Shown here: one piece after another, positions 3,029 to 55,747 of the stretch
Layout: every line of letters begins with the position of its first letter
How positions within the stretch are numbered: the stretch's first letter is position 1
Assembly: GCF_012184425.1 (NCBI RefSeq)
Contig: NZ_VTOW01000001.1
Coordinates: 806,001 to 870,000 of the forward strand
Direction: 5' to 3'
DNA: 64,000 bases
Origin: Candidatus Manganitrophus noduliformans
GTDB taxonomy: Bacteria; Nitrospirota; Nitrospiria; SBBL01; Manganitrophaceae
The notes under the pieces: model-generated
Told to the model about the DNA's origin: nothing
Databases searched by the model: none
What the model saw: only the letters and a program-made list of their open reading frames with translations
Translations under genes and position numbers: made by a program

Positions 3029-3514
3029 ATGGAAAACCAGGTCGGTATGATCAGAATGGCGGAAGTTGTTCCGCCTGAATCTCCCCAGCTTCACATCGAG
3101 CTCGCGGTGACGTTCCCGAAGGATAAATTCGATGCGATTTGGAGTGAGATCAAGCCATTTGTCGAAGAGCTGGCGGCGGCGTCCGCCGGCGAGTACGACG
3201 CCTATTCCGTCGCTCATGCGCTTCTTTTCGGCACTGCCCACCTCTACGTTGGCCGGTTGACGAATCCCGCGCGGACCTTCGTCGGTTATCTGCTGATCCG
3301 GTATGAACCGCAATCTTGTCACATCTGGCAGGCGTACATCGCTCCCGAGTTTAGGAAGACGAACGTTTTCCAGATGGGGGCCGATTACATCGAGCGAGAG
3401 TTTAAAAAGATGGGCGCCAAGCAGATTACCTTTTCCGCCACGCGGGAGTGGGGCGAAGTCATCGAGAAAATGGGCTTCACCCGCACCTACACGATTTGGA
3501 GGAAGTCGCTTTAA
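3029..3514 (+). CDS. GNAT-fold acetyltransferase-like protein
   Basis: A 161-residue protein with the layout of a GNAT enzyme: a central beta strand 'TFVGYLLIRYEPQSCHIWQAYIAPEFRK' (about residues 88-115) matching strands 4 and 5 and the start of the acetyl-CoA loop, then a helix and the C-terminal 'AKQITFSATREWGEVIEKMGFTRTYTIWRK' typical of GNAT strands 6 and 7. The usual Q/RxxGxG/A pyrophosphate loop is replaced by RKTNVFQMGAD, so activity is uncertain. GNAT-like proteins are common in podovirus structural clusters, sometimes as putative internal virion proteins. It follows a terminator, and its TAA overlaps the next ATG (TAATG). Substrate unknown. Confidence 0.6.
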   Translation: MENQVGMIRMAEVVPPESPQLHIELAVTFPKDKFDAIWSEIKPFVEELAAASAGEYDAYSVAHALLFGTAHLYVGRLTNPARTFVGYLLIRYEPQSCHIWQAYIAPEFRKTNVFQMGADYIEREFKKMGAKQITFSATREWGEVIEKMGFTRTYTIWRKSL

Positions 3515-4449
3515 TGGGATCTTCCGGGTCCGGATCTTCACAGCAGGTGACGAATCTATTTGTTGGGTTTGAGCCGGAGGTTTCAGAATACCTCAAGGCC
3601 ATGCGCGATTTGGTCAATTATTCGACAACGACGACAAAGCCGCAGTTTCGCCCTCCCCTGTTTACCATCCCGGCACAGACCTACGCGCTTCAAGACGCGA
3701 ACGAGCTGGAAGGCATCTCCCGGCTGGCAACACGATCCAGAGATGGAAGCCCGATCATCTCTGCCGGCGAAACCGTGCTTCGAAACACATTCGACGGTCT
3801 GAACCTTACCAATAATCCGAAGCTGGATGCGCTTTGGACGCGGCGAAAAGAAGAAGTGATTCAGGAGTGGGAGGAAGAGATCCTTCCCAGGATTCATTCG
3901 ATTGCCAATCTCAACGGCGGGTTCGGTTCTTCCGGTCATCATGTGATGCAGGCGAAAGAAGCCGAGAAGGTCATGAAGCGGCTGGTTCAAATCGCCTACG
4001 AGATTTACGGTCAGAATTATTTCGCGGAGCGGGCGATTCAGCAGGCGGCGCTCGGGCTCGGAATCGAGTACGGCACCCAGGATATTAAAGACGCGGAGAT
4101 GCTTCGTCAGGTGGGACTCTACAAGCGGGAGTATTCCCAGGGAGCGAGGGAGGACGCCTACAAGCGATCGATGGCCGAAATTGACATGGAGATCACCCGG
4201 CTGGAAGTGCTGGGTAACGCTATTCGGACCGTGATGGGGTCATACGTCACCCGGACGGAGCAACTTTTCTATCCGAGTAAGTTTGGGGAGATTGCCGGAA
4301 TCGCTCTGGCCGGAATGAGCTTGGCTGGATCGATCTACGGAAACGGCGGGTTCGGAAGTCCTTCGACGGGTCAAGCCGGAAGCCCGTCAAGTGGGCCGAC
4401 GCCCTCTTATTCTCCCGGGTCGGCCGTTCCAAGCTACCAGGTGGGGTAA
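3514..4449 (+). CDS. Phage virion protein, paralogue A (putative internal/ejection protein)
   Basis: A 311-residue protein. I chose ATG 3514 over upstream alternatives because it overlaps the previous stop (TAATG) and has GGAGG at a good distance. The sequence is mostly helical, with a Gly/Ala-rich hydrophobic segment near residues 255-275 (IAGIALAGMSLAGSIYG) and a Ser/Pro/Gly-rich tail. It is clearly related to the next gene: 'EGISRLATRSRDGS' matches 'EGIAKLNTRGRNGN', and 'QVGLYKREYSQGAREDAY' matches 'RAGIYQREYEQTKLDDAY'. Paired helical proteins with glycine-rich membrane segments next to tail genes fit podovirus ejection proteins. This is an inference from position and composition, and I know of no named family. 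Confidence 0.55.
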   Translation: MGSSGSGSSQQVTNLFVGFEPEVSEYLKAMRDLVNYSTTTTKPQFRPPLFTIPAQTYALQDANELEGISRLATRSRDGSPIISAGETVLRNTFDGLNLTNNPKLDALWTRRKEEVIQEWEEEILPRIHSIANLNGGFGSSGHHVMQAKEAEKVMKRLVQIAYEIYGQNYFAERAIQQAALGLGIEYGTQDIKDAEMLRQVGLYKREYSQGAREDAYKRSMAEIDMEITRLEVLGNAIRTVMGSYVTRTEQLFYPSKFGEIAGIALAGMSLAGSIYGNGGFGSPSTGQAGSPSSGPTPSYSPGSAVPSYQVG

Positions 4450-4452
4450 ATC

Positions 4453-5358
4453 ATGGGTGGATCAAAGGGACAAAGCACGGTCACTGTCGAGAAATGGCCT
4501 GCATTTCTTGAAGATACGGCAAACCCTTATTCCGTTCCCGGAATTTTGAATTTATACCTCGATGCTTCAAGAGAGGTCAGCGATTACTATGAGAGCGTTT
4601 TTCTTGGCGGTGTTTCTGTCTTTACGAACTTCGCCAAGATCATCGTCGCTCAAGCGGTTGAAGAGGCCGAAGGGATTGCAAAGCTAAACACCCGCGGAAG
4701 AAACGGAAATACCACGGTCACAAAGGCAAAGGCGCTCGTCACCGATGTGATCGGTGGGGATTACCTGGATGGATCCAGATCCGAGTTTCAGGAAGTCCTT
4801 ACCGATATCAATCAGAAGTCGGACGATGCCTTTGAAGACGATATTCGCTCGAAAGTGGGAGGCTCCCTTTATTTGATGGGAGATCCGGCGCCGGACAACC
4901 TGGCGGAAGAATTAACCTCCGGAACTTCTCAGAAATATCGGGACCGGCTGGTCGACCGCGCCTATGCCGACAATTATGGGGTTGAACGAAGGCATCAGCA
5001 TGACACGCTTTATCCTGGAAAGGATTACGCGATTCAAGACGTTTACGATGCGGAAGCCGTTCGCCGGGCCGGAATCTATCAGCGTGAATACGAGCAAACA
5101 AAGCTCGATGATGCTTACCGGGCGCAAATGGAGTACACCGCGAACAGAATCCGGGCTGAGGAGGTTTTTGGGAACGCGCTTCGTTCGATGGTGGGGGCGC
5201 AGCAGGCACATACCACACCATATTACAAGCCGAATCCGGCGGGGTCGATCCTCGGTGGTGCGTTGGTGGGGGCACAGGCCGGGTCTGTGCTGGGTCCGTG
5301 GGGAGCGGCCGGCGGTGCCGTGATCGGTGGAATCTTGGGATATGCGGGATCACAATAG
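4453..5358 (+). CDS. Phage virion protein, paralogue B with C-terminal glycine-zipper segment
   Basis: A 301-residue protein, a diverged tandem duplicate of the preceding gene. The two share the 'EGI..L.TR.R.G' block and the '(V/A)GIYxREYxQ..xDAY..xM...xxRxE.xxGNA.R' block at about residues 195-245. The C-terminus ends in a glycine zipper (GGALVGAQAGSVLGPWGAAGG.., about residues 263-298), a pattern seen in membrane-inserting or pore-forming segments. It begins 3 bases after the previous stop and is followed 8 bases later by the next gene. A role in DNA delivery through the envelope is inferred, not shown. Confidence 0.55.
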   Translation: MGGSKGQSTVTVEKWPAFLEDTANPYSVPGILNLYLDASREVSDYYESVFLGGVSVFTNFAKIIVAQAVEEAEGIAKLNTRGRNGNTTVTKAKALVTDVIGGDYLDGSRSEFQEVLTDINQKSDDAFEDDIRSKVGGSLYLMGDPAPDNLAEELTSGTSQKYRDRLVDRAYADNYGVERRHQHDTLYPGKDYAIQDVYDAEAVRRAGIYQREYEQTKLDDAYRAQMEYTANRIRAEEVFGNALRSMVGAQQAHTTPYYKPNPAGSILGGALVGAQAGSVLGPWGAAGGAVIGGILGYAGSQ

Positions 5359-5366
5359 GAGACGGC

Positions 5367-6797
5367 ATGGCACACGATGATATCCGGAAAGGGAACGGCT
5401 TGAGGATCAATTTCGGGGATCGTGTTTTATTCGAAGATCCTCCGTCAAAGCCGAATATAGCAGAGAGTATCTATCGGGACGAAGGAAGCCGCATCGAACC
5501 CGGCAATCCGAATCGAAGTGCCGTCACCCCTGTTTCGAATGCGATTACTGGACCGATTTACGGTCCGAAGAACATCGCCGAGGAGCGGGTTTCCCCGCGT
5601 CCCGGAATGACCTCGCCGCCACTTCCCGAGTGGCCAAATACCGCGGCGTCTGCCGTGTCTCCCCCCACATGGGAGCGCCGCGGTATTCCTACCATCCCTG
5701 CCGTTGATTCGGATGTGTCGACGCCTGATGTGGTCGCTTCTCCCGGACAGCCGCAAGGGCTCAAGACGCCTGAAGGAATGGGCCCCCCTGCGCCGGAAAG
5801 CGCAACCGCCAAATGGTTTAAGAACATGACGCCGGATCAGCGGACGGCGCTTCAACGGTCTCTTCTGGCGACCGGGCTTTCTTTGATGGCGTCTCAGCGA
5901 CCCTCCCGGTATCCGGTTTCGACTGTCTCTCAGGTCGGAGAGGCGGGGCTGACGGGGCTTGCCGTTTACGATCGAACCATGGCGCAAGCTGGCGAAGCAG
6001 CGGATCGCCGGACGCAACTTGGATTGCGGGAGCGTCAGGTCGCTACAGAAGAAGCGCGGCTTCGCCTGGCGGTTGATGAGGCGATGAGGAAGGCCGAATT
6101 CGAAAGCCCTGGAACGCCTGGGACGGTCGGATACTCGGAGCGGCCGACGTCGCTTCAACTCAATACCGGAGGGGTTCAGGAGCGGCCGGTAGCGACCCGC
6201 GGCGAGGGGGCTGGACCTCGAGCGCTTGGGTTGAATCTCGGAGCGCCGGAGGCGTCTTCCGGGGCGACCCGGCCGGAGAGAGGGTTGGTGGTCACCCCGG
6301 GAAAAGAGCCCGGTCAGGGGTATCGTGCGCGGGAGGCCGATATCCGGTATCGAAACGCGGTGACCGACAAGCTGCTTTCCGAAACAGGCGGAGAGATCTT
6401 CAAGTTGACACTGGAAGAGAAGCGCCTTGGGATCGAGAAGGCGAAAGCAGAGATCGGTAAGCTTCGCGCGGAAGCGGCCAAAATGCCGAAGTCTCAACGC
6501 GATTACCTCGAAGAGAAGGCGCAAGACGGATTTACGAAAGCCTATCTTGCGTACAAAAAGGAACATCCTGAGGACGAGGACGGCGCGATCGCGGCCGGAT
6601 TCAGCGTTTACAACTCCCTCTTTCGCATGGGGATGGGTGATCAGTTCATTCCGGGGGAGGAAACTGGATTCTGGCCCTTTAAAGGCCGGGAGCCTGGTCA
6701 GTGGGTATCTCCCCCGGCCGGCGCGAAGGATACCGGCCGCACCTCTGGCGGAAAGAAGGTTTATCAACTTCCTGACGGAAACTACTGGGTGCCCTGA
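5367..6797 (+). CDS. Phage protein of unknown function, Pro-rich N-half and coiled-coil C-half
   Basis: A 476-residue protein. ATG 5367 is preferred to the upstream in-frame start because it sits just after the previous stop with GGAGACGG in front. Residues 1-140 are Pro/Ser/Gly-rich and probably disordered. A short helical segment near 150-185 ([27 protein letters not shown]) is the likeliest folded or membrane-active part. Residues 345-410 are Lys/Glu-rich coiled coil ([27 protein letters not shown]). The C-terminus ends in a short '[15 protein letters not shown]' unit. The stop overlaps the ATG of the giant gene (TGATG), suggesting translational coupling. It may be a virion linker or internal protein. 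Confidence 0.5.
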
Positions 6798-9700
6798 TGC
6801 CGATCATCCCCAAGGATCAAATCCAATTTGACGAAACGGATGCCTCAGCGTCGCCTCCTGGCGGCCAAATCTACAAGCCTGACCAAATCCGTTTCGATGA
6901 TGAACCGGCCCAGGGAAAGGGGCTTTCCGTCGCCGGAGCGGGGCGTCCCGGCATCGGCCTGAAACCGGCCCACGAAACGCTTCCAGGGGCCGACGCAGAG
7001 ACAATGCGGGATCAGCCAGCGACTTGGGGCGAGACGTTAAAAGCGATTCCGGAATTGACCTACCAGGCTGGAAAAGAGGCGGTTGGCGGGATTGCCCAAA
7101 TGGTCGGCGAGGGCCGATCGACTCCCGATCCAATGGGCGGGATTGTGCTAAAGATCGCCGAGGAGTTAATGCCGGGCCTTAAAACCCCTCCCCCTCCTCG
7201 GGATGAAGCGATTTCCCAGTTCGGCGAGCGCCTGGGTGCGGAAGCAAGGGCGCGATCGGAAGAAATCACGCCGAAGAATCAGACCTTCTGGCAGAAAGCA
7301 ACCACACAGGCCGGTATTTCGCTTGGGAGCATGATTCCTGGGACTATCGCGTCGATCATTGCCGGAAACCCTGCGCCATTGGTGGGCTCCTTCGCTGCAC
7401 AAGAGGCAGGGCAGAGTTACAGTGAGGCACGGTCCAAGGGACTCCCGGAGGGTCAAGCGGCTCTGTACGCTCAATTAAATGGTGTGATCGAAGCGGGGAC
7501 CGAGTATCTTCCGGCGAAAGTGCTTTTTAAATCAGGTACAGGCCCTTTTAAAAGATTGCTGAATCTCTACGCCGCGGAACTCCCCGGTGAGAACATCGCC
7601 ACCTTAAGTCAATCCCTCAATGCCTACGTCAACGGATTGGATCCGAATCTAACCGGCGGGGAATTGATCGAGCGGATGAAGCTGACAACCGGGTCGACAA
7701 TGATTTCCGCCGGTGTTCAAGGTGGGATCTCCACGGTTGGAAATCGGATGGCTGGACGAAGGGGCCTTCCGGTTGAGGCACCCAAAGCGACCCCTCCCCC
7801 AACCGGAAAACCGCCCGCGTCTCCGACCGAACCTCCAACCTTCACCCCGACGCACATCCTTCCGGACGGCACGGTGACCCAAAAGGTTGAAGAGGGGGTG
7901 GTGGTCGACCGCCAAGGAAACCTTTATTCCGAAGAGGACGCCACCCCGACGCCGGGACAACGAAGACCGCCGGATACCAGCTTCCGCGCGCGCGACCTGT
8001 CAGAAATACCAGGTGAGACGCCGATCGGAAGGGGTTTGCCGGTTGAACCGGTTGCAGCTGCAAGCCCGGTTGAAGCGCCGACAGACGTCGACCTTCTGGT
8101 GCCGACCGATCAGCCGATACCGCCTCCTGGGCGGGGCCTTTCCCTGGAGACGCCTGAGGCGCTGGCTCCCAGGGTCGAAGCCGATTTGACGACCGGGCAG
8201 GTGATCGAGCAGCCCGAAGCCGTCCGACCGACACCGGTTGAGACGCCGCAGGTTGTTCCGGACGCTCCGACCGGTCCTATCTCCCCTGAAATCGAGCGCC
8301 CCAGGCCACAGCAAACCATTCCCTCGATTCGTCAGGAGGTCGAAGTTCTTGATGAGGAAGCGGAGGACATTCCCCAGCCGAAGGAGATGGACGAAAAGAG
8401 CCCGCTCGGATTGAAGGGGACCGACAAGAATACCTCGCTCGCCGCCTTTGTTCGTGCTGCAGGTGGCATCAACGAAACGCAGATGGCGGGGGATGTGCGT
8501 CAACGCTTCTCGATCCGGGAAGGATTCAACCTGGTCAACCGAAAAACAGGCCTTCCCCTCGATCGGCTTCGGCAAATGGCGGCGCAACATGGGTTCGTTC
8601 CGGAAGACTCCACCCCGGCCGACTTTCTTGAAGCGCTTCGTCGGGACGCCGACTCCCTTAAAGCGCTGGGGAAGGGATCCGTTTTCTCACGCTACTACTC
8701 GCCGGACCTTCCTGGGTTTGACTCGCCGGAAGCCAAGGCGTTCGAGCGCCGGACCGATATCAAGAAAAGAAAGATTGTCAATCGAATGACGCCGGAGGAG
8801 ATGAGAAAGGAACTCCTGACGAGCGCGAAGACTGGAATTCCGAATGATCGTGCCTACGAAGAGGCGATCGACAATACGACCGACAAGGGCCGTCCACATC
8901 GCCGCGACGTTCAGGCTATGATCGACATGGACGGGCTGAAATGGGTCAACGATAATTTGGGCCATGAAGCCGGAGACGCTTTTCTTCGCGCGATCGGCGA
9001 TGCGATTAAAGAATCTGAAATCGAGGGATACCATTTAAGCGGGGATGAGTTTGCCGCGCAATTCGATCGGGAAGTGGACGCTTATGCGAAGATGGAAATA
9101 TTGCGCGACGTTCTCAGAAATGGTATTGTAACCGTTGAGTATGCTGACGGGTCTTCTCGTCAGTTTAAAGGATTGGAGTTTTCCTATGGCGTCGGATCGG
9201 AAAGAACCGCAGCAGACACCGCCCTCTACTCCGACAAAGCAAGGCGAAGGGAATCCGGGGAGCGGGCAAAAACGTCCACCGAACCGCCTCCTTCCCTGGT
9301 TGAAATCACTCCCCCCGAATCCGGTGCGGATAACCGTGGAACTCCTGGGCCGCAAGACCGTGGTGGATCTGAAACCGAAACCGAAGACTTCCGATTAACT
9401 TCTCCCGAAGCACCCCCCGAAGAGCAACCTAAAGCGCCTACCGCCCAGCAGGGTGAAATGTTTCCTGGATCTGAGACGATGCAGACGGGCACCCGTCCGA
9501 TCATCGCCGAAGAAACCGGGGAATTTTTCAAACCGCTTGAGCCGGAAATTGAACAGCCTTCCCTCCTCGATCAAAAACTCGAAGAAGCACGCGAACAGGT
9601 TGACACCTCCCCCTCCGAAGCCCAAATTGAAGCCGGAAACTACCAAAAGGGACACCTCCGAATCAATGGTCTTGATATCTCAATAGAAAACCCGAAGGGT

Positions 9701-12700
9701 TCCACGCGGAACGTCGGCGGGAAATCCTTCAAGATGAACTTCGACTATGGGTATATCAAGGGAACGACCGGCGCCGACAAAGAGCATATCGACGTTTACC
9801 TCGGGCCCAACCTGGAATCGGAAAAGATCTTTGTCGTCAACCAGGTCGATCCCGATAAGAACAAATTTGATGAGCAAAAGGTCATGCTCGGATTCTCTTC
9901 CCCGGAAGAGGCCAAAACCGCCTACCTGAAACAGTACGACAATCCTGCCTTTTTCGGGTCAATGGTCGAAGTGAGTATGGAGGATTTCAAGGCGCGGATA
10001 AATGGCGGGGGGAAATTGATTGAACCGGCGGAGGTAATCAAGCTTCGAAAGCGGCTTTACGATGAGGGGGAGAAAAAGAAGCAGACGGGAAACCGGGAGC
10101 GGTTGAAAAACCTTCTCTCAGGCCGCGGTGGAATGATTGAAACCGATGCGGAGAGAAAAGCGCGGGAAGAAAAAAGCGCTTCCATTCAACAAGCGGAAGA
10201 GAGTAAGATAATTGCGTCGCCACAGGAGACAGCCGATGAGCCTGGATCAGTTCGGCCAACAAGCCAAAGCCCACTGGAAGGAACACCTTCCGAAGAAGTA
10301 TCGTCAACTCTCAGCAGCGGGGACGCTGGAGAAGGAACTTCTCGAAGCCCAAGAGAAGACGCACGACGAGATCAACCGTCTGATGACACAGGGGTTGACG
10401 TTCGACGAGGCCTGGGAGCTGACGAGGGAGAAATATCTTCTCCTTCCACCGGAGAAGGGGTAGCCCGAAACCAATCCCACCAAGGGAAGCCCGCCGGGTA
10501 CGACTACATTATCCGTCCGGAGATCGACAACCTCGAAGAGGGCGGGCCCAAAGGTAAGTTCAAGCGAAACCTCGACGCGCTCAAACTCCTTAAAAACATC
10601 GAAGCGGAAGGACGTCTTGCCACCCCGGAAGAACAGGCCGTTCTTGTCAAATATGTCGGTTGGGGCGGGATGCCGGCCGCCTTCAACGAATGGGGCGACT
10701 GGTCGGACGAGAACCGCCGTTTAAAAGAAGTCCTTACCGAGCAGGAATACGAGCAAGCGCGCGCAACCACACCGAACGCGCACTATACCTCTCCGGCAGT
10801 TATCGCGGGGATCTATAAGGCGCTGCAGCGTTTCGGATTCAATGGGGGGCGCGTCATTGAGCCGTCCATGGGGGTCGGTCACTTCTTCGGATTGATGCCG
10901 CAAGAGATGGCGGCGCGATCGACCCGGACCGGCGTTGAAATCGACTCTCTCACTGGCCGGATTGCTCGCCAACTCTACCAGACCGCCGACATTCGCATTC
11001 AGGGTTTTGAAGACACGAAGCTTCCGAACAACTTTTTCGATGTCGCCGTGGGTAATGTTCCTTTCGGCGATTTTAAAGTAAACGACCTTCCTTATAACAA
11101 ACATAATCTCTTCATCCACGATTACTTTTTCGTGAAGTCACTCGACAAGGTTCGTCCGGGTGGTGTGCTCGCCTTTATCACCTCCTCCGGCAGCATGAAC
11201 AGCGGCCGATCTGAGAAGATGCGCCGGTTGATGGCTGAACAAACAGAATTCATCGGCGCGATTCGTCTCCCCTCCTCGGCGTTCAAAAAGATCGCCAACA
11301 CCGAAGTCACAACCGATGTGATCTTTCTTCGAAAGCTTCTTCCTGGGGAGAAGCCGACCGGACCCGCCTGGATTGAATCGAAGGACAGCGATTTCAAGGG
11401 AGAGGGCGGGGTACCTCTTAGAAACAACGAATACTTCATCGCTCATCCCGAGATGATGCTGGGGAAGGTGACTGACGACAAATTACATCCGGGCCGGATG
11501 GGGTTGGCGCCGGACGGCCGCGATTTAACGCAGGCCATTGAGGAGGCGGTTTCCCGTCTTCCTGAGAACGTTTTTAGGGATGCTCCAAAGAAGACCGTTC
11601 AGGAAATTCTCGAAAGGCTTCCGGCTCCGGAGGATGTCAAACCCGGCGCGTTTACCCTCCAGGACGGAAAACTTTACATGGAGAAGGGCGGGCAGCTCGT
11701 CGCCCCCATGACGGCGACCGATCGGCCGATTGAGGGGGTGGCCGCCGAACGCGTTAAAGGGATGATCGCAATTCGGGATGCGGTTCGTGAAGTGATCCGC
11801 ACTCAGATGATGGAGTCTTCCGAAGAAAATATTCTTCGCACACGGAAGCAGTTAAATCAAACCTACGATCGATTCGTTAAAAAATACGGCTATATCAATT
11901 CACAGCCGAATAACGTGGTTTTCCGAAACGATCCGGATTACTACACCCTGGCCGCGCTCGAGAAGTGGGACAAAGAAGCGAAGACCGCGACCAAGGCGGA
12001 CATATTCAGCAAGCGGACCATCGAAAGAAACCTCCGTGCCAGCCGGGTCGATACCTCAAAAGAGGCGATGCTCGCTTCTTTAAACGAGATGGGCCGGCTT
12101 GATTTTGACCGAATGCGGGAGTTGACCGGAAAGAGCGACGCCGATCTTCAATCCGAGTTAAAGGGATTGATCTTTCTCAATCCGGAAGGAAGTTGGGAGT
12201 CCGCCGACGAGTACCTTTCCGGCAATGTGCGGGAGAAACTTAAGGCCGCGGAGGGGGCTGCTGCTGCAGATCCACGGTTTAAAGAAAATGTCGAAGCTCT
12301 CAAAGCGGTTCAGCCGGAAGAATTGACCGCCGGAAAGATCGATCTTCGCCTCGGTGCTTCCTGGGTGCCGCCGTCTGATGTGCGCGATTTTATAAAACAC
12401 CTTCTTGGGATCGATACCAGGGTCGGCTATTCGGCGGGGATGGCAACGTGGTCGGCTAATTTTGTCCGCGGAAATCTTGACTCAACCGCCAACCAAACCC
12501 AATACGGTACCTCTCGCTATTCCGGACTTTCTCTGATTCAGGATACGCTCAATCTGAAAACCGCGCGAGTCTATGACACCTTCCGGGAACCGGGTGGCGG
12601 GGAGAGATCCGTCCTTAACGAAAAAGAAACCCTAGCCGCACAGGAAAAACAGGAAGCGATCAAGCAAGCGTTTAAGAAGTGGGCGTTTGAGGATCAGGAA

Positions 12701-15700
12701 CGGGCCGAACGGCTGGTGAAGATTTACAACGAGCGGTTTAATTCCATTCGGACTCGGCAGTATGACGGCAGCCATTTAACCCTTCCTGGCGCTTCTCCTA
12801 TTATCCAGCTTCGCCCCCATCAGAAAGACGGAATCTGGAGAATCGTTCAATCCGGAAATACCCTCCTGGCGCACGTTGTTGGCGCTGGAAAGACCTTCAC
12901 GATGATCGGTGGGGCGATGGAGCTGCGCCGGCTGGGGATCGTTAAAAAGCCGGTTTTTGTCGTTCCGAACCATCTTGTCGGTGAGTGGGGAAATCAATTC
13001 CTTCGTCTCTATCCCGCCGCCAACATTTTGGTTACGACCAAAGCCGACTTCGAGAAGAAGAACCGTCAACGGCTGATGGGGAAGATCGCAACCGGTGATT
13101 GGGACGGGGTGATCGTCGCCCATAGCGCCTTTACGAAGCTTCCCGTCAGCGATGAAACAGTAATCGAATTCCTCGAACGGGAATTGACTGTATTGAGAGA
13201 TTTCCTCGAAGAGGCAAAGCGAGAAGCCGGTAAGAGCGGAAACCAGATCGTCAAGGAGTTGGAGAAAGCGAAAAAGCGTCTTGAGGCAAAAATAGATGCG
13301 CGCCATGACGCCATTAAAGCACGGGCCGATCGCGGGGTGAGTTTCGAAGAAACCGGGATCGACATGTTGTTGGTCGACGAAGCCGACCTTTTTAAAAATC
13401 TTTTCTTTCCCACCAAAATGACGCGCGTGGCCGGACTCGCTCGATCGGAGAGTGAACGCGCCTTTGATATGTATATTAAGACGCAGCTGATCAATAAACT
13501 CACAAACGGCCGCGGGATCGTCTTCGCCACCGGAACACCGGTCAGTAACACCATGGCTGAGGTGTTCACAATGCAACGGTATCTGCAGCCTCAAACCCTG
13601 GAAGGGCAGGGGCTCTCTCATTTCGATGCCTGGGCGTCTCAATTCGGCGATACGGTCACCGCTTTGGAGCAATCCCCAACTGGCGCCACTTTCCGCATGA
13701 ATACCCGGTTTGCCAAGTTTACCAACGTGCCCGAGCTCATGTCGATGTTCATGCAGACGATGGACCTGAAAAACCGGGAGATGCTGAACCTTCCGACCCC
13801 CAAGATCAAGGGTGGGAAACCGGAGATGGTCATCGCCAAGGCGACGAACGAATTGAGGCGGTTTGTCGAAATTCTGGAAAAACGTGGACAGGCGATCAAG
13901 GAAAGGAAGGTTAAGCCGGAAGAAGACAACATGCTCAAGATTACGGGTGACGGCAGGAAGGCCTCGCTCGATATTCGCCTGGTTCAGCCGATGGCGCCGG
14001 AAGCAAAATCCGGAAAGGTCAACCTTGCAATTCGAAACGTGGTCGATATTTGGGAAAAGACGGCCAACGTGAGGGGAGCGCAATTGGTCTTCCTGGATCT
14101 CTCCACCCCGAAAGGTCAAAAGGAGGCTGGCGATAAAGAAGCGCCGAAACCTCCCGCGTCGGAAGGGGTTGAAGAGGCTCCACTGAAAGACGAAGGAGAG
14201 GCGGATCGGGCGGTAGAAACCGCTGAGGAAGCGTCGCTTCGCGGATCGGTCTACAACGATATAAAGCGAAAACTGATTCTGCAGGGAATCCCGGAGAATG
14301 AAATCGCCTTCATCCACGATGCCGATACAGACGCAAAGAAAGAGCAACTCTTCAAGAATGTGAATTCCGGCAAGGTCCGGATTCTGATGGGATCAACCGA
14401 GAAGATGGGGGCCGGCACCAACGTTCAGGAGCGTCTTGTCGCTCTTCATCACCTGGATGCGCCGTGGCGACCGCGCGACCTTGAACAGAGAGAAGGCCGG
14501 ATCATCCGGCAGGGGAATAAACTCTACGAGGCCGACCCCGAGAATTTTCAGATTCAAATCTTCCGCTATGCGACCGAAGCGCCTTCTTTCGACCTGTATA
14601 TGTGGCAGCAACTTGAATCGAAAGCGAAGATGATCGCTCAGGTCATGAGTGGCCGCACCGACATTCGGGAAATCGAAGACATCGGGGATCAGTCGATTCG
14701 GTCGATCGAGGAGATGAAAGCGGCGACCTCCGGAAATCCCCTTCTTAAAGAAAAGGTGGAAGCCGATTTTGAAATCCGAAAACTCTCTCTGCTGAAATCC
14801 CAGCACGATGACGCGCAATTCCGGCTGCGCCGCCGGCTTTCTGAAATGGGAAGCGATATCCCCAGGGATAAGCGGAACCTTGAATTGCTCAAAGCGGATA
14901 TCGCCCATCGGGACAAAAACAAATCCGAAAAGTTCAAGATGGAGGTCGGCGGGAAGGTTTATACCGAACGAAAGGATGCCGGCGAGCAAATCGTCCGGAT
15001 CGGCGCCGGGTTGCAGGCCGATAAGAAGTATGATCAGTGGCAACCGATCGGACGGTACAACGGGTTTAATCTAGAGGTTGGGGCCTATGCTCTTGATATT
15101 TCCATCCGGATGAGCCGGCCGGGCGGGATGTATCATTATGCCAACGTAACGGATACCTTTCAGGGGACCATTGCCAGCATTGACGCCACTCTCCGCGGAA
15201 TGGAAGCAGCCCAGGAAAAGATCGAGCGCAGGATTGATAAAAACGAAAAAGACGTCGAGGAAGTTAAGAAAGAAATCGGAAAGCCCTTCGAGCAAGAGGA
15301 TCGGCTTAACAATCTGGTTGCGCGATCGGCCGAAATCGAAAAGATTTTAAAAACTCCCGTTCCGGAAGCACCGAAGACCGATGAACCGCAAGCGCCGGCC
15401 GAAGAGGGGGAGGCAGAGTTTTCGGTTGCCCGCGGCGCTTTTCGCCTGACAAACGATCAATACCGGAAGATCGTCGCCGACCTTCAACGGATCATCGCTC
15501 CCGGAAGCCGGGTCGTTCTGAAAGGTCAAATCACGGCCAATGCCGAAGGAAACGAGAAAGCCCTTGCCTCCTGGGGGATGGGTGATACTACCGGCGATAT
15601 CAGGCTGGCCGGCCTTCACCGGACCGTCCGGTTGGACAATGGTCAACTGGCCTCCCTGATTCAACTCTCCCTGCGCGACATGAACGAGGGTACCCCCTAT

Positions 15701-18619
15701 CATGAAGCGTGGCACTCCGTCGAAAACCTTCTTCTCTCCGACAAAGAGATTGAGACCCTGCGCGCTGCCTTCCCCGAAAAAGATTGGGTAGCGTCGACCG
15801 AGCGCACCGCGGACGCCTTCGCCGATTGGGTGGCGAAGAAGAAGATCGAAGCCCCGGGCCGGGTGCGGCTGCTCTTCCTGAAAATCCGGACCTTCTTCGA
15901 GAAGCTGAGAAACGCGCTCCGCGGCCGTGGGTTTAATTCTGTCGAAGTCCTCTTTGAAAAAGCCTTCGCTGGGGAGCTGCGGGATCGAACGACACGCGGC
16001 CAAGTTGGGGGAGAGAGTTTCTCTGTCAAAAAGTACAAAACCCCCGAAGAGGCGAAACAGGCGACCCTCGAAGCGCGGAAGGAGAAAGAGGAAAAGCGCA
16101 ACCTCAAAATCAAGCTGCGCGCCGCGGAGAAAGCATCGAAAGAAGGCTTCCGCGCGGGTGTCTCGGAGGAGCGCGCCAAAGCCAATGCCAAAATCGCCGA
16201 GATGAAGCGGGACCGGACGGCCATTGTCAATCGCCTGAAAAACACCTTCGCTGAAAAGTTGGAGGAAATCGGCCGGGTCCAGGAGTTGAAAGACCTGAAA
16301 GCCGACATTCTTACCCGAAACGTCGAATCGATCAAGCAGGAAATCGCCGACTACGCCAAGAAGCACCTTCCGATGGAAGCCCGCGGGGCGATGCTCTCGA
16401 ACGTGGCGAAGGCGAAAACTCACGCCGACCTGGTTCGCGCGTTCGCTCGGATCGATAAAATCGCCGAACAGGTGGAGAGAAAGGGGCTCATTGCCGAATT
16501 CAAAGACGTTCTGCAGCGAATCTCGGAGAGCAACACGATCGCCGTTCCCTACCGGAATCGAATCCGGGATCTTCTCTCGAGCCTCGAATTTTCAGAGGGC
16601 CGATACCGGCGCGCGAAAGCGCTGATGATCGACGGCGAAATGGATCCGGCCACCGAAGCGATGATGGAAGCGATGTCCGTTCTTGCGCGCCGGCCGCTCT
16701 CCGATTTATCGAATGATGAAATCCGGGCGATGCTGGAAGAAATCGTTCTGCTGGAAGAGCTGGGCCGGCAGGCCGAAATTACCAGAAAAGAGCTTTGGGA
16801 AGCCCGTAAAGAGGCGATTAAGGAAGCGGTGGTTTCCGGGACGGTCCCGATCGAGAAGCCCGAAGGAAAAGCCCTTGCCGCCGCCCAGCACATCGATTTG
16901 GCTGTCACTCCGATGGATGCCCTCATTGACCGGTTGGACGGGGGAAAGGGGTCGTATGACGGCGCCAACATGACCTATTTCAAAAAGCCGATCGATTCCG
17001 CCTGGGGGAAATTCCTCGATGCGATCGACCCGATCAAAAAACAGGCCTGGGAGAAAGCGGGAAAGCTGCAGCTGACGAACGAGGATTTCGAGCGGATCGG
17101 GATCTACGCCGCGGATCAACAGGAAGGGGGCCGGGAGAAGCTTTTAAACAACGGGTTAACCGAAGAGGAGATCGACGCGATTCAGCTCCGTCCTTCCGAA
17201 ATGGAATTCTACCAGTGGATGAGGAAGAAGCTCGATCTGCTGTGGCCGCGGATCGCAAAGATCATGGCCGACGTTTACGGAAAACCCTTTGGGAAGGTGA
17301 AGAACTATTTCAGCTTCATGACCGATTGGGAAAAGCTGACCGAGATGGAGGTGGTTTCCCGGTTGATCGAAGCGCCGGAGTATGCCCCTCGGACGAAACA
17401 CCCTGAAATGAGCTTTACAAAATCCAGGATCGGAGCCGGAAAGCAGAGGATCAAATTAAACGCCATGGAGATCTTCCTCCGCCATACCGAGAACGCCGAA
17501 TACCTTCTCAATATGGGACCGACCGTGAAAATGCTCTACGAGGTCGCCAACTCCAAGGAGTACGGAGCGGCCGCCGGCGATCGGGGGCAATCGCTGATGG
17601 TTCAGTGGTTGGATCTGATTGCGCGGAAGGGAGGCATTCAGGGGGACCGGCAGATTGCCATTCTCGACATTCTTCGTCGCAACGTGGGGGTGGCGACCAT
17701 GTCGTTTAAGGTCTCCTCGGCGCTGGTGCAGCCCTCCTCGATCGTCACCGGGGCGTCGATGATCGGCCGCTACGCCTTCACCGGCAGTATGGACGTGGCG
17801 ACGTCGAAGCGGTGGCGTGAATTTCTCACAAAGAATTTCCCGGAGATTAGAGACAGAGAAGCCGACGATCCGGCCTTTATGGAGCTGTCCGACCGGAAAT
17901 GGTTGGCCCGGATGACGAAGATCGGACTCGGACCCCTCAAAAAGCTGGACCTGTACGCCGCCTCTGCGATCACCGCCGGCGCCTACCGGAAATACCTCAA
18001 TGAGCACGGACAAACCCTGGATTTCGAGAAGCCGAACAAGGACGCCATTGCCTATGCCGAATTGATGCTGCGGCGCACCCAGGCCTCGATGTTCTTCAAG
18101 GATACCCCTCTGGCGATCTCCCGCGGCGCGCTGACGGGAAACCGATCACTCGATAAAGTGCTCTTCCAGTTTCAAAACTTCGCGCTGAATAACTGGAGCC
18201 TGATTCGCCATGATCTTTGGCGCGCCGGCATCCGGGAGCGTAATCCCGCCAAAGCGGTCCGAATCTTCACCTGGTTGACCCTGGCGACCCTCGCCGAGGT
18301 CGGACTTCGGGATCTGGCCGGGTTCCTGACGGGAATGGATGATGATGATCCAGTCGAAAAAGAAATGGTCCAAGAAGCATTGAACAAGGTTCCCTTCCTC
18401 TCTCATTTGGTTTCAGCGATCGTGTATCAGGATGTGCCGATCCCGGTTGTTTCTACGTTGATGCGAATCCCGAAAGGGATTGGAAGAATGTTGTTCGGCA
18501 AAGAGCCGGAGACGAAGGCGCGCGGCCTCGTCACGGCGGTAGAAGGAGCGGGGCGGGTGGCCGGGATTCCTGGGGCTGCTCAGGTGGGGCAAACAGCAAG
18601 GGAAGCGCTGTCGGATTAA
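6797..18619 (+). CDS. Giant 3,940-residue phage polyvalent protein (SGDEF, InPase-like, N6-adenine methylase, SF2 helicase, zincin)
   Basis: A single uninterrupted frame. Domains in order: two short 'DQIxFD' repeats (residues 8-34); Gly/Ala-rich hydrophobic helices about 165-215; a diguanylate-cyclase-like domain about 660-805 with [11 protein letters not shown] (D710, D712), GHEAGD and SGDEF at 748-752 but no RxxD inhibitory site; a phage inorganic-pyrophosphatase-like domain about 949-1070 ([13 protein letters not shown]); an adenine methylase about 1235-1500 with EPSMGVGHF near 1353 and GNVPFG at 1419-1424 in place of NPPY; a DarB-like SF2 helicase with GAGKT 2029-2033, DEAD 2194-2197 and QREGRIIRQ 2564-2572; a zincin with HEAWH 2969-2973; long Lys/Glu-rich helices about 3040-3150; C-terminal polyvalent-associated helical domains about 3520-3940. 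Such multi-domain proteins, known from phages and conjugative elements, are thought to be packaged and injected to counter host defence. Position beside virion genes fits that. Which domains are active is not known. Confidence 0.85.
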
Positions 18620-18634
18620 GGGGAGGGGAAAGGG

Positions 18635-18856
18635 ATGGAGGTGTCGCTCAACATTGGAACGATTTTAAGTGGTGTGCTTGTCGTCTTGTTGGCCTATGGA
18701 ATAAAGCTTCTTCTTGGCCTTGACAAGCAAATGTCACAGTTTGGACAGTGGACCGAATCTCACGATAAGCAAGACGATGAGCGCCACCTTGATTTGACGA
18801 AACGGATCGGCCGGATCGAGCAATCCAGAATGCAGGGCGGCGATGGGCTTCAATGA
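18635..18856 (+). CDS. Small single-span membrane protein, holin-like
   Basis: A 73-residue peptide with one strong membrane segment (residues 7-26, IGTILSGVLVVLLAYGIKLL) followed by a charged helix rich in His, Asp and Lys. This is the layout of small phage holins or spanin-like partners. It starts 15 bases after the giant gene with GGGGAGGGG upstream, and its TGA overlaps the next ATG. A lysis role is inferred. No endolysin is visible nearby, so it may instead be a virion membrane peptide. Confidence 0.5.
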   Translation: MEVSLNIGTILSGVLVVLLAYGIKLLLGLDKQMSQFGQWTESHDKQDDERHLDLTKRIGRIEQSRMQGGDGLQ

Positions 18857-19086
18857 TGATCGATGACAACGGCCGGCTGATAAAAAAACCGAAAGTTAAA
18901 ATCAAATGCCGCTGCTGTCAGTTCCACTTTTTTTCTTATCACACTATCCTCAATCAGATGTGTCGATCCTGCCTCAAGCATGGGGAATACTATAACCACC
19001 TGGAAGGGTGCCCCGTTGCGTTCGTGAGGAAAAAGCGGCTGAGGGAATGGTTAGAGAAGGAGAAGAGGAAAAGGAGGAGAGGTTAA
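18853..19086 (+). CDS. Small Cys-rich phage protein (probable zinc-binding)
   Basis: A 77-residue peptide. Paired cysteines 'KCRCCQFHFF' (about residues 18-22) and 'QMCRSCLKHGEYYNHLEGC' (about 36-53) could form one zinc site. The C-terminus is strongly basic (KKRLREWLEKEKRKRRRG). It is translationally coupled to the holin-like gene by an ATGA overlap and is the last phage-type gene before the tRNA-Lys. Nucleic-acid binding is plausible from the zinc-ribbon look and basic tail. Function unknown. Confidence 0.5.
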   Translation: MMIDDNGRLIKKPKVKIKCRCCQFHFFSYHTILNQMCRSCLKHGEYYNHLEGCPVAFVRKKRLREWLEKEKRKRRRG

Positions 19087-19149
19087 CCCTCTGCTTAACC
19101 CTCCCCCTTTTCCTCTTTGCGCTTTGCGGTGTAACTTATTGAAATTAAA

Positions 19150-19225
<76 letters not shown>

Positions 19226-19360
19226 TATTATATGTGGGGGCCTGTGCGGCAAAGGAAGAGAAAAGGTCCTCCAATGCCCCCACGCCCCGCGGCTCGGACA
19301 AGCTCAGCTTGATCCTCGCCTTTATTCTATTTCGAACGCTCGTATCTGCTTCAAATTGGA

Positions 19361-19437
19361 TGGTGCGCCTGAAGGGATTTGAACCCCTAACCTACGGCTC
19401 CGGAGGCCGACGCTCTATCCAATTGAGCTACAGGCGC
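19361..19437 (-). tRNA. tRNA-Arg (CCG)
   Basis: A 77-nt cloverleaf with acceptor GCGCCTG/CAGGCGC, discriminator A and encoded CCA. Anticodon loop CTCCGGA gives CCG. The bottom pair of the anticodon stem (27-43) appears to be a T-T mismatch. Confidence 0.92.
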
Positions 19438-19533
19438 AGGGAAACCGGAATCCTACCACAAAAGTAAATCGATATCAATCATCTCCTTCTTTCGAGCTAT
19501 TGTCAGATACAAAGATCGGACTTATATTGGAAC

Positions 19534-19564
19534 TGTAAGCTTGGTGACCATAAGCGAGCTTACA
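19534..19564 (+). promoter_or_regulatory. Inverted repeat ahead of the cupredoxin gene
   Basis: An 8-bp perfect inverted repeat, TGTAAGCT (19534-19541) and AGCTTACA (19557-19564), has a 15-base centre. It ends two bases before the AAGGAGGG ribosome-binding site (from 19566). It could be a repressor operator or an RNA hairpin affecting translation of the cupredoxin. No clear sigma-70 boxes are visible right around it. Confidence 0.4.
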
Positions 19565-19578
19565 GAAGGAGGGTTCAA

Positions 19579-19968
19579 GTGCGTCGTTTCATTTTTCTTT
19601 TCGCTCTTATATCTCTTATCGGAACAACCGCCTTGGTTGAGGCGAACATCAATAAAAAACATGTCCCCAAATATCCGAAGCTCGTCGATCAACGTCCCGA
19701 TGCGCCGAAACTGGTTGCGCGGGACGATTATTATTCTCCACGGTTTTTACAGGTCAGGGTCGTGGCCGGGAATGAGATTTCCCTGGTAAACAAAGGGGGC
19801 AATATCCACGGCCTCGTCATCCCGGCCTTATCACAAATCAACGTGATCCGGCCGGGGGAGTCGAAAATGATTCCGGTCGAAGAAGATGCAAAGCCGGGGA
19901 TGTATGACTTCTTCTGTCATCTTCATCCCAGGATGCGGGGAACAATCGAGATCCTGCCGAAAACCTAG
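19579..19968 (+). CDS. Secreted cupredoxin-domain protein
   Basis: A 129-residue protein starting at GTG 19579 behind a strong AAGGAGGG. Residues 1-22 (MRRFIFLFALISLIGTTALVEA) form a Sec signal peptide. The mature part has the cupredoxin signature: YSPRFLQVRVVAGNEISLVNKG.. with ligand H77 (NIHG), then C113, H116 and M119 in FCHLHPRM, a type-1 copper set. It probably works as a periplasmic electron carrier or copper-binding protein. The partner oxidase or reductase is not adjacent, because the gene stands alone between tRNA genes. The fold call is firm. The specific electron-transfer partner is unknown. Confidence 0.85.
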   Translation: MRRFIFLFALISLIGTTALVEANINKKHVPKYPKLVDQRPDAPKLVARDDYYSPRFLQVRVVAGNEISLVNKGGNIHGLVIPALSQINVIRPGESKMIPVEEDAKPGMYDFFCHLHPRMRGTIEILPKT

Positions 19969-19974
19969 CGGAGT

Positions 19975-20051
19975 TGGTGCGCCCAGAGAGATTCGAACTC
20001 CCGACCCCTTGGTTCGAAGCCAAGTGCTCTATCCAGCTGAGCTATGGGCGC
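19975..20051 (-). tRNA. tRNA-Arg (UCG)
   Basis: A 77-nt cloverleaf with acceptor GCGCCCA/TGGGCGC, encoded CCA, anticodon stem CTTGG/CCAAG and loop CTTCGAA, giving UCG. It lies 6 bases after the cupredoxin stop on the opposite strand. Confidence 0.95.
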
Positions 20052-54892: not shown

Positions 54893-55747
54893 TTAGCCAA
54901 ACAGAACGCCGGCTTCGAGGACCTCATACTTGACCGCATTTTTTCCGCTCTTTTTGACCGAGTACATTAAACGATCGGCCCTTTTGATGATTTCTTCCAC
55001 TTTGTCCGGTAGGAGAAGAAAGGTGATGACCCCGATGCTGAAGGTCACCGGCCAGTTGTTCTCTTGCATCAATTTAAGAAGCTCTCTTCGGATCTTTTCA
55101 ATGACCCCTTGGGCCGACGCAGGGGTGGTCTCAGGCAGGAGAATGGCGAATTCGTCTCCCCCCATCCGCGCGACCTGGTCGGTTGCGCGCAGATGCTTCC
55201 GGGTCGCCTCGGCTACCTTTTGCAAGACCAGGTCGCCGACATCATGTCCGAAGCGATCATTGACCTCTTTGAAATGGTCCAGATCCATAAAGCCGACCGT
55301 CAAAGGGCGGCGGTAGCGCCGGGCTCGATTCACTTCGTGCTCAAGCTTTTCGTGAAAACTCCTCCGGTTGGCGGCCTGGGTCAGGGGGTCGGTCCTGGAG
55401 AGCTCTTTTTCATATTCGAGCGCGGTTTTTAACACACCCAGAATATGCGAGACGATCAAGAAAAAGCCGAGGCGGGCGAGCATGTTCCAGTAGGGGATCA
55501 GCGGATGAGAATAGAGGTGGCCGGCGCTTGTATCCGCGATCAGCCAGGTAATCGCGCTTGCAATCGAAAAGAGGGCCCCCTTCCACCTGCCCAGGAACCA
55601 AGCGATCATCGAGATGGGGATCAAGTAAAAAATCGAAAAGGCGACCTCAGGGCCGGTGAGATGATCGAGGAACCCAAAGAGGACAACGAGGAGAAATCCG
55701 AGCGTCAGTAGAAAGGAAGTCGATCGTTTTTCTAAAAATAGGATCAC
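54893..55747 (-). CDS. Membrane diguanylate cyclase (GGDEF)
   Basis: A 284-residue protein. Residues 8-110 hold about four membrane spans. A GGDEF domain follows from about 120: 'DPLTQAANRRSFHEKLEHEV', 'VGFMDLDHFKEVNDRFGHDVGDLVLQ', and GGDEF at 196-200. It makes cyclic di-GMP from two GTP, presumably in response to something sensed by the membrane part. The I-site position before GGDEF reads 'RATDQVARMGGDEF', with RxxD present (RATD), so product inhibition is likely. Confidence 0.93.
   Translation of the reverse strand: MILFLEKRSTSFLLTLGFLLVVLFGFLDHLTGPEVAFSIFYLIPISMIAWFLGRWKGALFSIASAITWLIADTSAGHLYSHPLIPYWNMLARLGFFLIVSHILGVLKTALEYEKELSRTDPLTQAANRRSFHEKLEHEVNRARRYRRPLTVGFMDLDHFKEVNDRFGHDVGDLVLQKVAEATRKHLRATDQVARMGGDEFAILLPETTPASAQGVIEKIRRELLKLMQENNWPVTFSIGVITFLLLPDKVEEIIKRADRLMYSVKKSGKNAVKYEVLEAGVLFG

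Follow-up and report, generated by a model that had tools for sequence, protein, structure and literature searches.

A phage-type GGDEF domain, predicted to be a diguanylate cyclase without product feedback, in a DarB-like prophage protein of Candidatus Manganitrophus noduliformans

The window analysed here is a 64,000-nucleotide stretch of Candidatus Manganitrophus noduliformans DNA (contig NZ_VTOW01000001.1, positions 806,001 to 870,000), and its first ~18.6 kb form the right-hand part of a prophage in which a 3,940-residue DarB-like polyvalent protein carries a GGDEF domain. We put the chance a little above even that this domain is a feedback-free diguanylate cyclase which, borne on a DarB-like virion protein, would be injected with the phage DNA and make c-di-GMP early in infection. 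That explanation rests on the predicted fold, the retention of catalytic residues, purifying selection, the absence of an RxxD site, the DarB-like setting and a position in the ejection module. GGDEF domains in polyvalent phage proteins have been known since 2017, and the one found here belongs to a distinct phage-only branch. As judged from its sequence and a structural model, the window's domain is a real and probably active phage-type diguanylate cyclase of a kind already described.

The GGDEF domain and the protein that houses it

The prophage features are as follows, with coordinates in the window.
60–1586, + strand: virion structural protein (phrog_3287, E 5.8e-41)
3448–6797, + strand: three ORFs directly 5′ of the giant ORF (3448–4449, 4453–5358, 5298–6797), in the ejection-protein position (synteny in relatives)
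6797–18619, + strand: DarB-like polyvalent protein housing the GGDEF domain (3,940 aa, stop-free reading frame)
7217–7726, + strand: N-terminal segment, residues 141–310, common to other polyvalent proteins (HMM iteration; 21 of 72 large GGDEF ORFs)
8744–9292, + strand: phage-type GGDEF domain, residues ~650–832 (Pfam, clade HMM, AlphaFold model of 8714–9307)
8924–8977, + strand: [18 protein letters not shown] block, residues 710–727, with predicted metal, phosphate and guanine contacts (conservation; roles by homology)
9038–9052, + strand: SGDEF motif, residues 748–752 (conservation in the branch)
9617–10000, + strand: InPase domain PF18823, residues 941–1068 (Pfam, E 4.3e-45)
10505–11464, + strand: DNA methylase half of the DarB dyad, residues 1237–1556 (Pfam, PHROGs, HMM iteration)
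12779–14698, + strand: SNF2/SF2 helicase half of the DarB dyad, residues 1995–2634 (Pfam, PHROGs, HMM iteration)
15701–15715, + strand: HEAWH, a zincin-like HExxH motif, residues 2969–2973 (no Pfam match)

The Pfam GGDEF profile matches residues 678–758 with an E-value of 4.7e-10 and 39.9 bits against a curated cut-off of 23.8, and translation of the ORF places D710, D712, the W716[11 protein letters not shown]727 block and S748-GDEF-752 exactly where the first-pass annotation had put them. That annotation located the domain at 8776–9260; a domain is indeed present there, and its extent is wider than proposed, covering residues ~650–832 (8744–9292). The residues D710, K715, N718, D727, D750 and E751 are all present, and we take their roles in binding metal, phosphate and guanine, those of the 710–727 block and the PleD numbering alike, from homology to PleD-type enzymes. 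The family hallmarks are thus kept apart from the first glycine, as had been noted: the window reads SGDEF in place of an exact GG[DE]EF, a family criterion that is not strictly defining. The variant is compatible with membership of the cyclase family because (G/S/A)G(D/E)EF is proposed in the literature on active enzymes, in the part consulted (PMC3974145).

An AlphaFold model of 8714–9307, built from 73 sequences, has a pLDDT of 90.8 and a pTM of 0.83, and its best PDB matches by both Foldseek and VIA are diguanylate cyclases, with VIA Z-scores of 17.1 against 3ign, 16.2 against PleD and 16.0 against GTP-bound PA0861 (5xgd; rmsd 2.5 over 147 residues). The structural comparison with active GGDEF enzymes that the first-pass annotation called for, and which might have returned a structure lacking the GTP pocket, therefore gives a predicted model with the cyclase fold (Z up to 17). 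The domain match is far beyond chance, as confidence in the predicted fold is high and relatives at 27–45% identity retain the same residues. The canonical enzymes PleD, WspR, SiaD and DgcR read GG[DE]EF, and the modelled domain resembles them in fold and catalytic residues.

The GGDEF, InPase, methylase and helicase domains are unrelated effector domains in a single polypeptide, as in polyvalent proteins generally, and the methylase–helicase dyad lies in a match to phrog_10089 (DarB-like antirestriction) that covers residues 1112–3209 with 1928 bits, the Eco57I-type methylase scoring slightly below its Pfam family cut-off. HExxH is kept in 34 of the 38 regions equivalent to the HEAWH region, across 34 loci, and by analogy with Iyer et al. 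2017 this region is a possible candidate for a self-processing peptidase.

Catalytic residues are retained across a phage-only branch

Only two relatives came from the initial viral-contig search, and an alignment with YuA-type proteins as query raised the number to 103, of which 80 were used. The 86 domains were reduced to 77 below 90% identity by dropping nine near-duplicates before counting, and the fragment L072 was left out of the tree and of the seven-residue count (n = 76). The cellular outgroup consists of 80 of the 545 matches from a scan of genome contigs (79 of them in the tree); these domains score 40–87 bits with the branch profile and are therefore taken as ordinary cellular cyclases. 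Host domains came from 20 stretches of the 47 host matches, 19 of which gave a row. In the resulting tree of 174 rows (76 phage, 79 cellular and 19 host), built by a quick method with SH-aLRT and no bootstrap, all 76 phage rows fall together on one side of a single branch (SH-aLRT 97), apart from the 98 cellular and host domains. The branch profile gives the prophage domain 221 bits in the window's genome, where the best of 45 other matches reaches 71.8, and within the host's phylum it finds a carrier in this genome only (1 of 395 at E 1e-25), with at most eight candidates scored per genome so that some may be missed.

Among the 77 non-redundant relatives D710, N718, D719 and G726 are each invariant, K715 is present in 73 and D727 in 68, and in the 76 sequences that reach the motif G749, D750 and E751 are always found and S748 in 66. 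Of these 76, 64 have all seven residues checked (D710, K715, N718, D727, G749, D750 and E751), and the other 12, a point against the injected-cyclase explanation, lack K715 or D727. Because the scan patterns demand some of these letters, conservation was assessed in the sequences that each pattern had left out: GDE is present in 22 of 22 readable members of the 23 outside the GDEF-pattern selection (one is gapped), D710/N718/D719 in all 27 outside the LKW-pattern selection, and S748 in 39 of 48 readable among the 50 found by a pattern blind to that position. The dN/dS ratio is 0.11–0.35 in polyvalent pairs with measurable dS, with a median of 0.34 over 23 pairs, from both polyvalent and stand-alone proteins, whose dS lies between 0.1 and 2, a set of non-independent pairs that includes near-copies. 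The domain is thus under purifying selection, and its catalytic residues are retained across the branch.

These counts bear on whether the domain still makes a nucleotide at all. Active enzymes with SGDEF are on record (ECA3270, PMC3974145; MbaA in vivo, PMC8079147), and so are an A to S change that abolished the activity of VCA0965 (PMC3974145) and a purified MbaA cytoplasmic domain that had no cyclase activity in vitro (PMC8079147), so that a serine at the first motif position gives no guarantee of activity. Degenerate GGDEF domains with other roles are also known, by the same partial account (PMC3974145), and the domain could accordingly have lost its product and serve the giant protein as a switch that binds GTP, as a means of dimerisation or as a structural spacer; we regard this as rather unlikely, given that D750 and E751 are found in 76 of 76 relatives, D710 and N718 in 77 of 77, and G749–E751 in every readable unselected sequence.

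Serine occupies the first motif position in only 4 of 77 readable cellular rows, a pattern having read that letter in 77 of the 80 cellular rows and 16 of the 19 from the host, with a few doubtful readings. The first-pass annotation reported no RxxD inhibitory site, and this is borne out by E and I at positions 739 and 742; RxxD lies five residues before the motif in 1 of the 77 phage sequences (L010), as against 35 of the 77 cellular and 14 of the 16 host domains that were readable. S748 without RxxD is therefore the norm of the branch and not a sign of decay, and decay of a captured host gene was rejected on the grounds that S748 is typical and that the branch is separate from the 19 host and 79 other cellular domains. 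A role as c-di-GMP receptor through the I-site was likewise rejected as unlikely, because 76 of 77 relatives have no RxxD and neither has the window's domain.

Two further elements are specific to the branch, RR.D...R before the cyclase core (window 8747–8770) and G.R..RG..P after it (9257–9286). The latter occurs in 58 of 76 phage rows and in 0 of 99 cellular ones, which, with the RxxD of many cellular cyclase domains, sets the branch apart from them. The window's own copy is without the second R and the G of this element. Its domain further differs from the rest of the branch at 684 (D, where R or K prevails) and 826 (T, where R prevails), which counts against the injected-cyclase explanation.

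Gene setting and delivery

The branch unites polyvalent proteins of metagenomic phages with gp44 of Pseudomonas phage YuA, a stand-alone protein, and its relatives in Bordetella phages. Annotated phages carry stand-alone genes (of the 49 records matching a second query, 39 are from Pseudomonas and 8 from Bordetella phages), and no polyvalent GGDEF fusion was seen among the annotated phage matches listed, 60 of 96 with the window's query plus those of the second; the weaker named records among the 96 are ordinary cyclases by annotation. YuA gp44 and the GGDEF proteins of Vojvodinavirus (Bordetella phage) share with the window's domain the same branch, SGDEF or AGDEF, the LKW-ND block, the C-terminal G.R..RG..P and the lack of RxxD, but unlike it they are encoded outside the virion module, as stand-alone proteins of ~156 aa. 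In its record YuA gp44 is given a 'putative role in host cell conversion', and its gene adjoins an antirestriction gene. Such relatives suit an alternative that we consider unlikely, namely that c-di-GMP would be made mainly where the domain is expressed, late in infection or in the lysogen, and would act on the biofilm, motility and receptors of the producing cell, in lysogenic conversion or superinfection exclusion. Lysogens of LK3, a phage encoding a GGDEF protein, form more biofilm, an effect described for the whole phage (PMC8471281). On the other side, 72 of the 77 non-redundant members lie in ORFs of at least 600 aa, from metagenomic viruses and this prophage, a count that favours proteins of the same type as the query, and virions are known to contain a DarB-like homologue (PMC9144972).

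The GGDEF domain is an optional cassette of DarB-type loci, present in 5 of 85 such (methylase) loci, in one of them as a GGDEF of another type, and in 1 of 80 InPase loci. Five relatives without GGDEF share residues 175–320, overlapping the N-terminal segment listed above, together with the DarB body, and the intervening ~370–490 residues, versus ~820 in the window, contain no GGDEF or InPase match. InPase was found in 18 of the 72 large GGDEF ORFs; of 70 DarB-type ORFs with an uncut N-terminus one has both domains, one GGDEF only, eight InPase only and 60 neither. The idea that InPase removes pyrophosphate made by the cyclase was not supported by these data (Fisher p 0.24, with little power). 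In L292 a DarB-type ORF of 3,760 aa contains a different GGDEF domain reading GGEEF (52 bits), perhaps an independent capture.

Genes for a terminase, a portal/head-tail adaptor, a major head protein, a primase/helicase and a DNA methylase lie upstream in the same genome, and the terminase, portal/head-tail adaptor and major head protein genes, with the virion protein at 60–1586, link the giant ORF to packaging and late genes. The ORF at 4453–5358 has a weak match to phrog_4287, a family of DNA ejection proteins (E 3.8e-4). The start of the GGDEF gene is no more than 50 bases from the end of the upstream ORF in 52 of the 60 loci listed (of 63, with mechanically called ORFs). Of ten upstream proteins from five loci, 3 match nothing; the family matches of the others include tail and internal virion proteins for L047, a DNA ejection protein for L039 and a tail protein for L080. 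The order in L047 is tail tubular-type proteins (phrog_394, phrog_376), an internal virion protein (phrog_418), an endolysin-type protein and then the GGDEF protein, a position held in T7 by gp16, a large ejection protein.

The first-pass annotation spoke of a phage virion-type protein, and the protein kind is in fact known from virions: JC1 gp69, the DarB-like homologue of 4515 aa from Bcep22-like podoviruses, was detected in purified virions with 51 unique peptides, according to the part of the report consulted (PMC9144972). The window's DarB body is 34.8% identical to that of JC1 over 80% of 2101 residues, and the two share the methylase–helicase body; unlike the window, the Bcep22-like phages are without a GGDEF counterpart in our searches, in that no Burkholderia record is among the 96 GGDEF matches. 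Given the ejection-type position, the presence of JC1 gp69 in virions and the homology to JC1, injection of the window's protein with the phage DNA is likely by analogy.

A weak GNAT acetyltransferase-like ORF, below the Pfam cut-off, lies among the late genes (3029–3514, + strand), and a prophage-region protein of the phosphoadenosine phosphosulfate reductase family (phrog_424) is seen at 3323–4159 of L187. The genes inspected beyond ~19 kb are those of an ordinary host chromosome (tRNAs, cupredoxin, IleRS and others), among them three host tRNA genes (Lys, Arg, Arg) at 19150–20051 (− strand) right past the right end of the prophage. No exact 16-base word is shared between 18620–19600 and the 40 kb upstream that could mark an attachment site, and those 40 kb contain no tRNA; the left end of the prophage was not found.

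Proposed action and comparison with known systems

Under the injected-cyclase explanation, the DarB-like polyvalent protein with its GGDEF domain would be packaged in the virion and enter a new host alongside the DNA, the cyclase domain would be released from the giant protein, perhaps by the HExxH part, and two copies would pair and convert GTP to c-di-GMP early in infection, insensitive to the product. The likeliest purpose, in our opinion, would be to shift host physiology or nucleotide signalling in favour of the phage during entry.

N718 and D727 of the window form a guanine-type pair, and c-di-GMP is therefore the expected product. In nine of the 77 relatives, all with GDEF, D727 is replaced by N (L013, L022, L059, L064, L075 and L079) or T (L065, L078 and L084), a possible change in nucleotide specificity. 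A serine at this base-reading position (Ser348 in the Geobacter enzyme) marks the Hypr enzymes that make cGAMP, and the Ser/Thr types reportedly use GGDE[F/Y] only (PMC6456294). These nine relatives favour a reading in which another cyclic dinucleotide such as cGAMP is made and feeds or jams a CBASS-like defence; with the guanine-type pair in the window, D727 included, we hold this to be very unlikely.

The first-pass annotation knew of no description of GGDEF domains in polyvalent proteins; this did not hold, as Iyer et al. 2017 described them in phages and proposed interference with host nucleotide responses (PMC5512222). Their example from an Acetonema longum prophage, WP_004096050.1, has GGDEF, SNF2, methylase, peptidase and ART domains (PMC5512222), and so resembles the window's giant protein in combining GGDEF with a SNF2 ATPase, an adenine methylase and a peptidase, and in the role proposed; it differs, by the part of the published description available, in that ART is named there and InPase is not. 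The limited literature searched, in part as excerpts, yielded no report of an experimental test of a phage polyvalent GGDEF domain.

The destruction or sequestration of cyclic nucleotides by phages is well established. The injection by a phage of an enzyme that makes them is only a prediction from 2017, and this locus and its relatives turn it into a testable family, with a sharply defined phage-only branch, intact active sites, a small domain and cultured members (YuA and Bordetella CN2). If active, the domain would give a pulse of second messenger in early infection without a feedback brake. A bolder proposal, which we think distinctly unlikely, is that tailed phages have evolved a branch of second-messenger synthases of their own, with SGDEF, the C-terminal element and no product inhibition, carried both as injected cargo fused to antirestriction machinery and as a stand-alone gene (in YuA beside an antirestriction gene), that would flood the cyclic-dinucleotide sensing of the new host so that its defence or lifestyle switches are mis-set, with the few T or N members perhaps making a different dinucleotide.

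The host genome has 48 GGDEF matches including that of the prophage, and the 47 others count against the added value of an injected copy. One of them lies in the window itself, at 54896–55747 on the − strand, and is a diguanylate cyclase of the ordinary host kind (GGDEF E 3.1e-44).
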